Assembly: GCA_947644195.1 (NCBI GenBank)
Contig: CANRZB010000035.1
Coordinates: 1 to 41,511 of the forward strand
From: an uncultured Clostridium sp.
Lineage (GTDB): Bacteria > Bacillota > Clostridia > Lachnospirales > Lachnospiraceae
Length of the DNA: 41,511 nt
Direction of reading: 5' to 3'
Shown: positions 29,142 to 33,278 of the stretch, piece after piece
Position numbering within the stretch: the first letter of the stretch is position 1
Layout of the letters: each line of letters opens with the position of its first letter
Program-made: the position numbers and the translations under genes
Notes under the pieces: model-generated
Told to the model about the DNA's origin: nothing
The model's input: only the letters and a program-made list of their open reading frames with translations
The model's database searches: none

Positions 29142-29912
29142 TTACACAAAGTTCCTGATAAAAGTACGCCGATGAATGGGACAAGGACCGTACTGACGGA
29201 TCACTTCGATATGTGCTTTAGAACCATACCCTTTATGGCCCGCAAAGCCATATTCGGGATACCTGGCATCCATTTCCACCATAATACGATCCCTGGTCAC
29301 TTTCGCCATAATACTGGCTGCGGCAATCGAAACACTCTTAGCATCTCCCTTAATAATTCCGGTCTGTTTCTGGACAACCTCCGGGATATGTACGGCATCC
29401 ACCAGAAGGTGATCCGGTGTTACAGATAATTTTCCAATCGCTTGCCGCATTGCCTCATAGGTAGCTTGTAATATATTAATCTCGTCAATTCGTTCCTGAG
29501 ATACGATACCTACCGCCCAGGCGACCGCCTTTTCCTGAATTTCTTCATAAAGTTGCTCTCGCTTTGCCTCTGAAAGCTTCTTGGAATCATTCAAATATAA
29601 TATTTCACAATCTGGTGGTAAAATAACCGCCCCTGCCACGACTGGTCCCGCAAGAGGCCCCCTGCCAGCCTCGTCAATACCACAGATTGCCTGACAGTCC
29701 TGGTATTTCTGTTCAAACACCCACATTTGCTGTAAACGATCCCGCTCCTGCTGCAGTTTCTCCTGCTGTCTCCTGGCTTTCAGGATGAGACTCTGCACAC
29801 CTTTACGGGGATCCGTTTCATATTGTGCTAATCGTTCTGCCAATGATTCCCCGGCAGTTTCTATTTCCTCTTTAATCACTGCAATCGGTTTTGCCGTTCC
29901 TGTGTCCATCAT
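29142..29912 (-). CDS. rnhB: Ribonuclease HII
   Basis: 256 residues from the ATG at 29912, five bases after AAAGGAGG (a second ATG follows directly). It cuts RNA in RNA-DNA hybrids, including single ribonucleotides in DNA. The catalytic DE pair is D80/E81 in GIDEAGRGPLAG, a third acid in LVDAVHIP, and a fourth in SIMAKVTRDRI. A helical N-terminal extension of about 70 residues precedes the domain, as in other Firmicutes. It lies 28 bases after the long signal peptidase gene. Confidence 0.96.
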   Translation of the reverse strand: MMDTGTAKPIAVIKEEIETAGESLAERLAQYETDPRKGVQSLILKARRQQEKLQQERDRLQQMWVFEQKYQDCQAICGIDEAGRGPLAGPVVAGAVILPPDCEILYLNDSKKLSEAKREQLYEEIQEKAVAWAVGIVSQERIDEINILQATYEAMRQAIGKLSVTPDHLLVDAVHIPEVVQKQTGIIKGDAKSVSIAAASIMAKVTRDRIMVEMDARYPEYGFAGHKGYGSKAHIEVIRQYGPCPIHRRTFIRNFV

Positions 29913-29940
29913 CGGGTCCTCCTTTGTATCTTCTGTCGCA

Positions 29941-32280
29941 TCAATGTGGTATTTTACCCGCCTTGGAAAAAGGCAAAACACGTCTCCACGCCTTGCCGAC
30001 AATATTCTTCTTTTTTATTAAGCCCACATAACTGCTGCGGCTGTCGGTACTCATATTGCGGTTATCTCCCAGCACAAAATATTCATCCGCCGCCAGAGTA
30101 ATCGGCTCTCCGGCATCTCCCGGAATATCTATGTATTCATCTTTTCCGTAGATATCGTCCTCCAGTTCTTTGTCGTTGATAAAAATCTTCCCTTCTTCAA
30201 TCTGTACGGTTTCTCCGGGTAGTCCAATCACACGTTTGATATAATTGGTCTCCGAATTGTACACCGGGAAAACAATGACATCATACCGGTCAGGCGATCC
30301 AAAATAATAACTGAGTTTTTCAATAATCACCGTATCCCCGTCGGTCAGTGTCGTCTCCATGGATTCTCCCTCTACTTTAGTAGGATGCGCCACGAAGTTA
30401 GTAACGAGTGATGATATCAGGAGAGCAATACAAACACAAAGGATAACCACTAATACATTTGTAATTATTTTTTTTGCTTTTTCACGGGATTCCGCATTTT
30501 CGGGATCTGTCATTTTATCTAGAATCAAATCCCGCAGTTTCCAAGCTGCGGCCATCGTAAATTGTTTCACCTGGACTGCCTTTTCCTGAATCACTTTGGC
30601 AGTTGTTGGCTCTCCGGTCTCCGCCCTTTTCTTTTTCAAGCGTTCTGCCTGTTTTTGCAGCATCATCTTGCGTTGCTGATAAGACGAATCCGAACTAGGC
30701 GTTCTTTTCAGCTCTTTTGCAAAGATGGAATCGATTTCCTCTTTCGACAGTTTGGGTTTATTCCCGGCCCCCTGATTTCCCTCAGCGCCTCCTCCCGTTG
30801 CCATATCTCCTGGCTGTACTCCAGGGATTGACAGCATCGGCATAGGAATCTGATTCCCTGGTTCGGTAACGGTAGCTTGGGCTTTCACCGATGTATTTTG
30901 CTCAGAATCTGCCTCCTGTGCCATCACATTCTCGCCAGTCGAAATTCCCTCGGCTTCCAACTGCAACTGCCTCATCCGAGCTTCTAATGTTGCCATCTCT
31001 GCCTGACGTTTCAGTTCTTCTGCCCGTTTCCGCAGACGTTCTACTTCCAAATCTTTCGGCGTTTGTATGACGGCATCCGGCATTTCTTGCTTTTGTCCCT
31101 CTGTAACACTCTGCTGTTTCTTTTTCTCTTCCTCGCGTCGCTTCTGTTCCTCTCTGGCCTGAAGTTCCTGTTTTCGTTTTTCCTCCTCTAACACCAGTTT
31201 CCGTCTACGTTCTTTTTCCTCGGCTTCTTTCCTTGCCTTTTCCTCCGCTTCCTTTCTGGCCTGTTCTGCCAGCCGCCTTCTCTGTTCCTCTATCTCCCGC
31301 TGCAGCTGTTCTTCTACCAGTTTCTGCCGTTCCGCTTCAATTTGACGACGCGCCTGTTCCTGCCGTCTTTGTTCCTCTGCCAGTCTCCGTCGTTCCTCTT
31401 CTATTTTCCTGCGTTCTGCTTCTTGCTTTTTCTTCTCCTCGATCTCCGCTAACTTTTGCCGTTCCTTCTCCGCTTCCATCTGACGGCGTTCTTCTTCCAG
31501 GCGCTTTTGTGCTTCCTGTTCTGCCAGTCTCCGCTTTGCTTCTTCCTGTTCCAGACGGTGCTGTTCCTCCACCATCCTTCGTTTCTCCATCAACTCCGCT
31601 TCCCGACGTTTCGCTTCTTCCTGTGCCCGACGGCGTTCTTCTTCCATCTGACGGCGCAATTCCTCCTGCCGTTTCTGTTCCTCTGCCAGTCTCCGCCGTT
31701 CCTCTTCTATTTTCCTGCGTTCTGTTTCCTGTCTTTTTTTCTCCTCTATTTCTGCCTGACGGCGCCGCTCCTTCTCTGCCTCAATCTGTCGTCGTTCTTC
31801 CTCCAAACGTCTCTTCTGTTCCTGTTCTGCTTGACGACGCCTTACTTCCTCCTGTTCTAAGCGACGGCGCTCCTCCTCCAGGCGTTTTCTCTGTTCCTGT
31901 TCCGCCTGTCTGCGTTTTGCTTCTTCCTGTTCTAAACGGCGGCGCTCTTCTTCCAGGCGTTTTCTCTGTTCCTGTTCCGCCTGTCTGCGTTTTACTTCCT
32001 CCTGTTCTAAGCGACGGCGTTCCTCCTCCAGTCTTCTCTGCTCTTGTCGCACTGCGGCATCGGAGGAAGCAAAAGGATCCCCCATAGAATATGGTTCCTG
32101 TCCCGTATTCTCCGTATGGGGGTTCTCTGTTTCCATATGATAGGCCAGATTGACAAAGAGCTCATCCGTATCATGATCTTCCAAAGGATCAAACTCGTCC
32201 AGAGCATCTTCCTGATCATATAACTCCTTCATCTGGCGAACAAATTCGAGGCTGTCCTCGATTCGGTTCTTGTCGTACAT
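29941..32280 (-). CDS. lepB: Signal peptidase I with very long charged N-terminal helix
   Basis: 779 residues, about four times the usual Gram-positive length. Residues 1-76 are acidic; about 77-392 are an almost unbroken E/R/K/Q helix, with near-identical 25-residue repeats starting at 84, 109 and 134 (LEEERRRLEQEE...). A less charged stretch (393-600) follows, then one membrane helix (605-629) and a complete S26 catalytic domain: nucleophile S640 in VEGESMETTL, general base K682 in NYIKRVIGLPGE, and GDNRNMSTDSR. It should remove signal peptides outside the membrane while the helix lies in the cytoplasm. The helix could be a coiled coil or a single alpha helix. Start follows GAGG seven bases upstream. 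Neighbours are rbgA and rnhB. Confidence 0.93.
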   Translation of the reverse strand: MYDKNRIEDSLEFVRQMKELYDQEDALDEFDPLEDHDTDELFVNLAYHMETENPHTENTGQEPYSMGDPFASSDAAVRQEQRRLEEERRRLEQEEVKRRQAEQEQRKRLEEERRRLEQEEAKRRQAEQEQRKRLEEERRRLEQEEVRRRQAEQEQKRRLEEERRQIEAEKERRRQAEIEEKKRQETERRKIEEERRRLAEEQKRQEELRRQMEEERRRAQEEAKRREAELMEKRRMVEEQHRLEQEEAKRRLAEQEAQKRLEEERRQMEAEKERQKLAEIEEKKKQEAERRKIEEERRRLAEEQRRQEQARRQIEAERQKLVEEQLQREIEEQRRRLAEQARKEAEEKARKEAEEKERRRKLVLEEEKRKQELQAREEQKRREEEKKKQQSVTEGQKQEMPDAVIQTPKDLEVERLRKRAEELKRQAEMATLEARMRQLQLEAEGISTGENVMAQEADSEQNTSVKAQATVTEPGNQIPMPMLSIPGVQPGDMATGGGAEGNQGAGNKPKLSKEEIDSIFAKELKRTPSSDSSYQQRKMMLQKQAERLKKKRAETGEPTTAKVIQEKAVQVKQFTMAAAWKLRDLILDKMTDPENAESREKAKKIITNVLVVILCVCIALLISSLVTNFVAHPTKVEGESMETTLTDGDTVIIEKLSYYFGSPDRYDVIVFPVYNSETNYIKRVIGLPGETVQIEEGKIFINDKELEDDIYGKDEYIDIPGDAGEPITLAADEYFVLGDNRNMSTDSRSSYVGLIKKKNIVGKAWRRVLPFSKAGKIPH
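31807..32031 (-). repeat. 75-bp tandem repeats in the helix part of lepB
   Basis: Three consecutive 75-base units encode 25 residues each (residues 84-158). They differ at few bases, the copies at 31957-32031 and 31882-31956 being closest. Further, more diverged repeats continue to about 31105. Both the units and the wider segment are rich in gag/gaa, cgt/cgc and cag codons on the coding strand. Confidence 0.85.
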
Positions 32281-32347: not shown

Positions 32348-33202
32348 CTACTCCTGTAGTATATCAACAGGACGCTCCAGACTGATTGTTCCAATCTTTC
32401 CATTGCGAAAATCATCTACCAGACATTTGGCCGCCTTATCCAGATCCCACTCTCCACCACTTTTTAAGCAGCCCCTTTTCTCTGCGATCTGTGTCAACTG
32501 TTCCTCTGTCGTTCCACCGGAAATCTGATAAAACTCCTTGACAGCCTGCGGATATGTTTCTGATAAATATTTCGTCAATAATACACTGAGTTCATAAATA
32601 TTATATAATTCATCTTTGATCGATCCAATGTATGCCAGACGTAAACCAACAGCCTGATCTTCAAACTTCGGCCATAAAATACCAGGGGTGTCCAGTAATT
32701 CCACTTGTTTATTCAGACGGATCCACTGCTTTCCCTTGGTTACGCCCGGTTTATTGCCGGTCTTTGTGCAAGCTTTTCCGGCAAAACTATTGATAAACGT
32801 AGACTTTCCAACATTCGGAATCCCAACGATCATAGCGCGGACAGGACGGTTTAAGATCCCTCTCCTGCGGTCGCGTTCTATTTTTTCCTTGCACGCTTCC
32901 TGGATCAGGTTTTGTACCGCCTTAACTCCTTTTCCGTTTTTGGAATTTACTTTTGTGACATAGTAATCTCTGGCTTCGTAATAGGAAATCCATTCTTCCG
33001 TCGCTGCGGGATCGGCCAAATCAAATTTGTTCATCAATAAGATACGGGACTTGCCAGCAGCCAGCTGGTCTATATCCGGGTTCTTGCTGCTATATGGTAC
33101 TCGTGCATCCACCAATTCAATAATGACATCAATTAGCCGGATGTCCTCCTGCATTGCCCTTCTTGCCTTCGTCATATGACCCGGATACCATTGAAACTGC
33201 AT
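32348..33202 (-). CDS. rbgA: Ribosome biogenesis GTPase RbgA (YlqF)
   Basis: 284 residues from the ATG at 33202, seven bases after GGAGG; MQFQWYPGHMTKARRAM is the family start. It is a circularly permuted GTPase: NKFDLAD (G4) comes before GIPNVGKST (G1) and DTPGILWP (G3). It is needed for late 50S assembly. The C-terminal ANTAR-like RNA-binding part is present. The gene sits between the two signal-peptidase-type genes and before rnhB, an order related to ylqF-rnhB in B. subtilis. Confidence 0.97.
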   Translation of the reverse strand: MQFQWYPGHMTKARRAMQEDIRLIDVIIELVDARVPYSSKNPDIDQLAAGKSRILLMNKFDLADPAATEEWISYYEARDYYVTKVNSKNGKGVKAVQNLIQEACKEKIERDRRRGILNRPVRAMIVGIPNVGKSTFINSFAGKACTKTGNKPGVTKGKQWIRLNKQVELLDTPGILWPKFEDQAVGLRLAYIGSIKDELYNIYELSVLLTKYLSETYPQAVKEFYQISGGTTEEQLTQIAEKRGCLKSGGEWDLDKAAKCLVDDFRNGKIGTISLERPVDILQE

Positions 33203-33278
33203 CAGTCCCTCCAATCTTGTCCTTTTCCAATCTGCGGTACATTTCATTATAACACAAAATCAATGAAAGCACTATGTT

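Follow-up and report, generated by a model that had tools for sequence, protein, structure and literature searches.

A conserved N-terminal motif in a Lachnospiraceae signal peptidase I suggests a putative transferable docking module, with a charged helix-like linker as a clade-specific spacer

In the signal peptidase SpsB of S. aureus, an N-terminal transmembrane domain is followed by a C-terminal extracellular enzyme domain, as described in PMC11898559. According to the same source SpsB is enriched at the septum, and the location of a signal peptidase can thus matter. Its homologue SpsA is described as lacking two conserved catalytic residues (PMC12445088). Single alpha-helix (SAH) domains are reported as linkers, spacers and springs in myosins, CAF-1 and drebrin (PMC4183817, PMC10335832, PMC12203971, PMC5378345). 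Here, we analyzed a stretch of 41,511 nucleotides from an uncultured Clostridium sp. of the Lachnospiraceae (contig CANRZB010000035.1; hereafter the window). It encodes a 779-residue signal peptidase I in which the membrane anchor is preceded by about 600 residues. ORF and profile matches agreed with the original prediction in coordinates, length and the size of this pre-anchor region. The short pre-anchor region usual in Gram-positive enzymes, which does not define the family, is not present here, about 600 residues standing in its place.

The protein was assigned to the S26 type I signal peptidases by two profiles, both above their curated cut-offs. PF10502 matched residues 613-765 with 141.8 bits (cut-off 22.9), and TIGR02227 gave 147.5 bits (cut-off 47). 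Alignment to the solved signal peptidases 4nv4, 4wvg and 4wvh places the Ser/Lys dyad at Ser640 and Lys682. The enzyme is active-looking with an intact dyad, as had been predicted, and both residues were retained in 34 of 34 aligned peptidases carrying the N-terminal motif described below. The start ATG is preceded by GAGGAAACAAT, a plausible ribosome site. A homologue scan of contigs returned 57 loci, mostly parts of catalytic domains with 31-53% identity and none of them a near relative. The features of the locus are collected in Table 1.

Table 1. Features of the window and of related loci. Coordinates refer to the window unless a locus (L) is given.
Feature	Coordinates	Strand	Basis or remark
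Signal peptidase I with long N-terminal region	29941..32280	-	779-residue ORF; PF10502, TIGR02227
Ribosome-binding-site-like stretch, 5' of start codon	32281..32297	-	sequence inspection
Conserved N-terminal motif, putative docking motif	32209..32280	-	residues 1-24 (MYDKNRIEDSLEFVRQMKELYDQE); conservation, AlphaFold2 helix 4-28
Second half of module, degenerate, Trp motif missing	32128..32208	-	DTDELFVNLAYH; module profile
Charged single-alpha-helix-like rod	31105..32052	-	residues 77-392; charge pattern, AlphaFold2
Helix 409-444	30949..31056	-	sequence similar in G003, G011; AlphaFold2
Low-confidence spacer	30748..30948	-	residues 445-511; pLDDT ~30-35
Juxtamembrane segment 512-560	30601..30747	-	KLSKEEIDSIFA...; similar in G003, G011, weakly in G016
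Membrane anchor	30391..30471	-	~residues 604-630; sequence, AlphaFold2 helix 596-631
Peptidase S26 domain with Ser640 and Lys682	29986..30444	-	profile, codon numbering, alignment
rnhB, ribonuclease HII, downstream neighbour	29142..30002	-	true start probably inside ORF
GTPase, presumably ylqF/rbgA-type, between the two signal peptidase genes	32348..33247	-	profile, gene order
lepB-1, signal peptidase without catalytic residues	33279..33899	-	Ser->Tyr, Lys->Glu, GDNRN->CDNRN
Pel-cluster membrane protein with module	L217:1891-4746	+	module profile
Pel-cluster membrane protein with module	L218:1550-4420	-	module profile
Pel-cluster membrane protein with module	L240:2830-4755	-	module profile

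Orthologues lying between ylqF and rnhB have the short motif IEDSLEFCRxI in common at their N-termini, and the genus consensus at the protein start reads MYDExEIEDSLEFCRxI. A first set of genus orthologues was picked by a pattern containing this motif, so that the selection itself partly accounts for M, Y, S and L being invariant there; profile and operon searches give the better count. By profile searches, 23 of 28 genus genomes carry the motif: 22 matched at E 2.7e-7 or better with a profile that 15 of these 22 had seeded, and one more (G007) matched the module profile introduced below. In 20 of these 23, a single open frame spans both the motif and the catalytic domain. The G003 gene is apparently split across two contig ends, both inside the rod; that the pieces form one gene is deduced from lepB-1 and ylqF beside one and rnhB beside the other. 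The motif-bearing gene of G021 contains stops. In G016 (L116:5016-7111 (-)), the frame that starts with the motif overlaps a different one that contains the catalytic part. G005 and G018 (L112, L113) keep lepB-1, ylqF and rnhB, but the last two genes have no signal peptidase gene between them. The lepB-1 of G010 lies on a short contig and has no neighbouring ylqF, and no such locus was found in the 63% and 60% complete genomes G013 and G023.

In the family, 299 genomes (298 genera) were searched, and the motif was detected in 14 with E values up to 6.4e-4. Two of these belong to the window's genus and the remaining 12 to other genera, of which 297 had been sampled. Eight of these 12 had seeded the profile, and four were new (G105, G299, G328 and G159). 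In all 14, the motif lies near the start of the signal peptidase adjoining ylqF. Within the window's own genome it matched this peptidase only (E 1.5e-12; next match 0.66). The fusion had been proposed for a search in other genomes, and motif-bearing peptidases were found across the genus and in other genera, some of them with long N-termini. Further weaker matches comprised ten at E 0.007 to 0.05 in the family search, G005:C4 and G004:C201 in the genus motif search, and G017:C107 (E 0.087) in the genus module search. A 1148-residue ylqF-linked signal peptidase of G208 (L151:1432-4875 (+)) has a long charged N-terminal region and does not carry the motif. In open-access titles and the beginnings of abstracts, no description of a signal peptidase with this motif and a long linker was found.

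The most conspicuous part of the window's protein is the rod of residues 77-392. It contains 99 E, 76 R, 42 Q, 32 K, 25 A and 21 L, with E/D/K/R making up 65.5% of its residues, which bears out the predicted richness in E, R, K and Q. Opposite charges at i+3 and i+4 exceeded composition-preserving shuffles by 3.4 to 11.1 s.d. Acidic-to-basic pairs (E/D followed by K/R) numbered 76 at i+3 (33.9 in shuffles) and 62 at i+4 (33.7), basic-to-acidic pairs 62 at i+4 (33.2), and like charges at i+4 occurred 8 times where 66.5 were expected (z -9.7). A hydrophobic heptad was not found in residues 77-392: power at period 3.5 was 0.02, and occupancy of a/d positions was at shuffle level (0.277 compared with 0.261, s.d. 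0.016). The helix at 409-444 lies outside the range covered by this test. A weak hydrophobic period near 4.1 was detected (p 0.019 for the LIVMF set, p 0.005 with Ala included). Salt bridges at i+3 and i+4 together with the lack of a 3.5 period are the signature of a single alpha helix and not of a coiled coil, and the rod shows both hallmarks of SAH domains, E/K/R richness with opposite charges at i+3/i+4 and no heptad.

AlphaFold2 was run on the single sequence, so the model counts as weak evidence. It placed helices at residues 4-28, 39-48, 75-230, 234-391, 409-444, 513-525, 533-555, 560-590 and 596-631. In the model a short break thus divides the rod into helices 75-230 and 234-391. In the rod pLDDT was mostly 70-90, falling to 48-57 for about residues 211-250, and it stayed below 50 across most of the catalytic domain. 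Judged by charge pattern and model, residues 77-392 look like a single alpha helix. The prediction had left the choice between a single alpha helix and a long coiled coil; the first fits the charge pattern, and the coiled coil was rejected because the a/d hydrophobic pattern is missing. The length of 47 nm suggested for the rod holds as an upper bound, the rod being modelled with a break.

The gene region of the rod contains tandem repeats of 75 bp in 2.9 copies. Between copies 25 codons apart, 36 of 61 base differences fall on third positions (binomial p 5.4e-5), and 27 codons differ synonymously and 18 non-synonymously. The bias is weaker between copies 102 codons apart (84 of 196 on third positions, p 0.006; 75 non-synonymous and 32 synonymous codons). 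The third-position bias indicates that the rod is translated and selected as a protein. An antisense ORF rich in Pro, Leu and Ser (31233-32087 (+)) was judged a mirror of the repeat and no gene.

These data also bear on two doubts that had been raised along with the original prediction, an internal translation start near residue 600 and an assembly error; both are unlikely. In the first case translation would begin near residue 576-590 and the upstream part would not be made, and there is an ATG at residue 576 with AGGTGA about 12 bases upstream. Against this stand the third-position bias in the rod and the first 24 residues, which follow a ribosome-site-like stretch and are conserved in 23 genomes of the genus and in 12 other genera. 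Together they leave an internal start extremely improbable. Related genes occur in many separate assemblies, including an 877-residue frame in G011 and a motif-bearing 311-residue frame in the one-contig genome G315, which speaks against an assembly error.

We compared the linkers between motif and anchor. Among relatives they range from 37 to 712 residues, G003 and G016 entering with minimum values. When counting starts at the stop that precedes the frame, the pre-anchor region is just 75-109 residues long in 17 of 22 genus rows; the long ones have 207 (G009), at least 263 (G016), at least 289 (G003), 605 (G000) and 699 (G011). Composition varies by lineage and is helical, acidic or rich in Pro/Thr/Ala. 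The G000, G003 and G011 linkers are charged or Ala-rich helices, with EARAKAEA repeats in this group. The G016 linker is acidic, that of G009 consists of KPSDEVVAE repeats, that of G298 is Pro/Thr/Ala-rich and that of G336 Pro/Gln/Ser-rich. A clear charged-helix score was reached only by G000 (z 12.8), G011 (7.8) and G003 (4.9), followed by G014 with 2.9 over 63 residues. In a tree of 61 catalytic domains, from which the truncated row G034_3 had been dropped, 34 motif-bearing domains lie on one side of a branch with support 78/97, where 78 is the percentage of bootstrap trees in a bootstrap that was not fully settled. The clade of G000, G011 and G003 was supported with 100/98. Long linkers are scattered over at least four positions in the tree, namely this clade, the pair G336/G298, G322 and G009; G016 falls near the G000/G011/G003 clade at a position that the tree does not fix. 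In G336 and G298 (L149:2218-4392 (-), L152:1712-4468 (+)), a second similar stretch (ITIKFDIAG... and ITINFDFTN...) was seen before the anchor, after otherwise unrelated linkers.

This turnover changes how the rod is to be regarded. It had been proposed as a scaffold in the cytoplasm; a tether-like role fits the data, while a conserved scaffold does not, as relatives have unrelated linkers of 37 to 712 residues and the motif is the part that is conserved. That the rod itself acts as a scaffold, spacer or self-association element we consider doubtful. The strong single-helix pattern common to the supported three-genome clade, the protein-level selection on its repeats and the similarity of helix 409-444 and segment 512-560 within the clade would fit such a function. 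Relatives, on the other hand, keep the motif with unrelated linkers, and the missing heptad in residues 77-392 gives no indication of self-association of the rod by a coiled coil. The opposite view, a nearly neutral linker in which repeat slippage lengthens a tolerated region so that its length has no meaning, is a serious possibility, although we would not bet on it. Long linkers of differing composition in at least four tree places, the tandem 75-bp repeats and the short pre-anchor regions of most genus rows are all compatible with it, but the rod repeats diverge mostly at third positions and the charge pattern is kept.

In part of the genus the motif extends to a module of about 55 residues. 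Its second part follows after a variable gap and contains an invariant Trp, mostly within LFxxM...W-EKVLDE in ten chosen genus members. A module profile was built from ten signal peptidases only and searched in the 28 genus genomes. It matched the window at 32128-32280 (E 1.5e-8, positions 1-43 of 59), where the first half is kept and the second half as well as the usual Cys14 are lost. When the family was searched with the fuller module, matches in most other genera did not go beyond its first 23-30 positions. Weak matches there in G373 (histidine-kinase-like), G344 (helicase-like), G183 (ABC-ATPase-like), G418 and G245 (both guanylate-kinase-like) were taken as chance, the names being given from reading the sequences. 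Twelve module members searched against Pfam gave a best E of 0.019, and no two of them matched the same family. Against PDB sequences the profile gave no convincing match, the best being a chain named MPP1 (E 0.0066) followed by a de novo protein.

In three genomes of the genus, the peptidase-derived profile also detected a membrane protein unrelated to the peptidase: G015 (E 1.8e-15; frame of 952 aa), G001 (4.1e-11; 957 aa) and G007 (1.2e-9; 642 aa, cut by a contig end). By their sequences these look like orthologous multi-span membrane proteins. The gene following the G015 protein belongs to DUF2194, similar genes were seen by eye in G001 and G007, and past the latter lies PelF in G007 (NF038011, 205.2 bits, cut-off 100). 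From these neighbours we assign the proteins to a Pel-like exopolysaccharide cluster; PMC7112168 describes pelDEADAFG clusters of Gram-positive bacteria. Of 200 family genomes searched, 22 had homologues of the Pel membrane protein; the window's genome and G002 gave no match. According to a simple hydropathy scan, two predicted spans flank the 245-residue loop that contains the module, and this loop is probably cytosolic. Alignments of homologues stop at query residues 289-313 and resume at 451 or beyond, except for one in G197 that runs through. The corresponding region has 30-40 residues in four and 79-183 in the other four of eight proteins from seven genomes, compared with 204 residues in G015 and 216 in G001. 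The module was not matched in the loops of the eight other homologues (best E 1.1). The loop is thus generally variable, with the module as one of several sequences that occupy it.

This second home also weighs on the idea that the module is a docking peptide for Sec, SRP or the ribosome and places the peptidase at the translocon. Only functional logic speaks for it, as signal peptidases work at the sites of preprotein passage through the membrane. The Pel-cluster membrane protein has no obvious need for a translocon and carries the same module, and we therefore give this idea little credence.

Next to the motif-bearing peptidase, the gene cluster contains the dead paralogue lepB-1. The order lepB-1, ylqF, peptidase, rnhB was found in 20 of 26 genus genomes examined; the G014 and G016 stretches lack lepB-1 only, and the G003 stretch begins inside the gene. 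Further upstream of lepB-1 lie a MecA-family and a BacA-family gene. LepB-1 matched the S26 profile with 115.1 bits and has Tyr and Glu at the dyad positions, like the inactive SpsA type. Among 24 genus homologues, which include G014b from another locus, Lys is lost in all 24 and Ser in 23 (G022 keeps Ser), and the Gly of GDNRN is Cys in 23 (exception G014b). A further copy in G003 has the same residues by eye. In other genera, the upstream peptidase lacked a complete dyad in 6 of 12 cases with the motif and in 1 of 14 without it, with Lys-to-Arg counted as loss in G148, G159 and G205. Counted by lineages, which are related to one another, Fisher's test gave p 0.013 (7 of 13 and 1 of 14); the 14 motif-less cases are not random, as they derive from 18 stretches among the matches listed that had been picked for long frames or N-terminal coverage.

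The module could accordingly be imagined to engage lepB-1 and form a regulated pair of an active and an inactive enzyme. The common gene cluster and the association of motif and incomplete dyad point in this direction. Half of the other motif-bearing genera have an intact upstream dyad, the association carries the limits just given, and only about 20 residues precede the lepB-1 anchor; we regard such a pair as quite improbable.

We read the N-terminal module as a transferable cytosolic docking module, putative at this stage, and the rod as a clade-specific spacer. On balance, the enzyme is probably an active type I signal peptidase on a cytosolic tether that ends in this putative docking module, with binding positioning the enzyme and the linker giving reach. 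Weighing against this reading are the shortness of the motif, the loss of the second module half and of Cys14 in the window's own copy, the two genus genomes that lack this peptidase at the locus, and the confinement of the Pel case to three genomes of one genus. The cytosolic side of the tether is expected from the single-anchor topology of Gram-positive signal peptidases. The free N-terminal end would form a short amphipathic docking module that binds a cytosolic or membrane-peripheral partner, and the peptidase would thereby be concentrated or positioned. The linker would supply the reach by which a membrane-fixed protease gets to this partner. In the window's clade it may have become a stiff charged single helix, which may add a fixed distance; elsewhere it would be a flexible Pro/Thr/Ala-rich or acidic chain. 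Relatives lack the stiff helix, and stiffness is therefore at most a local refinement. A bolder version, in which an undescribed cytosolic module of about 55 residues gathers the signal peptidase and the Pel membrane protein onto one shared partner, with lepB-1 turned into a non-catalytic subunit, we put forward only tentatively. The enzyme family itself is known, and the novel part is the module with its second home. Such a handle, conserved and on the cytosolic face of a signal peptidase, would offer a concrete bait for a positioning partner. The eye-catching rod of 316 residues may be replaceable, and it is the plain 20 residues before it that are conserved.

With type I signal peptidases (PF10502, TIGR02227) as described in PMC12445088, the window's protein shares the catalytic domain, the Ser/Lys dyad and one membrane anchor. 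It differs from SpsB in its roughly 600 pre-anchor residues with a putative docking motif. As in S. aureus, where SpsA is described beside SpsB, one cell has both an active signal peptidase and an inactive homologue, and SpsA may by analogy serve as a precedent for lepB-1. In contrast to SpsA/SpsB, ylqF lies between the two genes here, the active enzyme bears the motif, and the dead one recurs in 24 of 24 genus homologues examined. The rod resembles the described SAH domains in its E/R/K richness and its salt bridges along the helix, but it sits on a bacterial membrane protease whose relatives have non-helical linkers. Two further systems are comparable in layout. The C-terminal linker of FtsZ is variable and ends in a short conserved binding peptide, and domain II of TolA is a long Ala-rich helix. 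These are different proteins in different places, and no homology is claimed. The likeness to FtsZ lies in a variable linker that ends in a short conserved peptide, and the likeness to TolA in a long Ala-rich helix such as that of G011.
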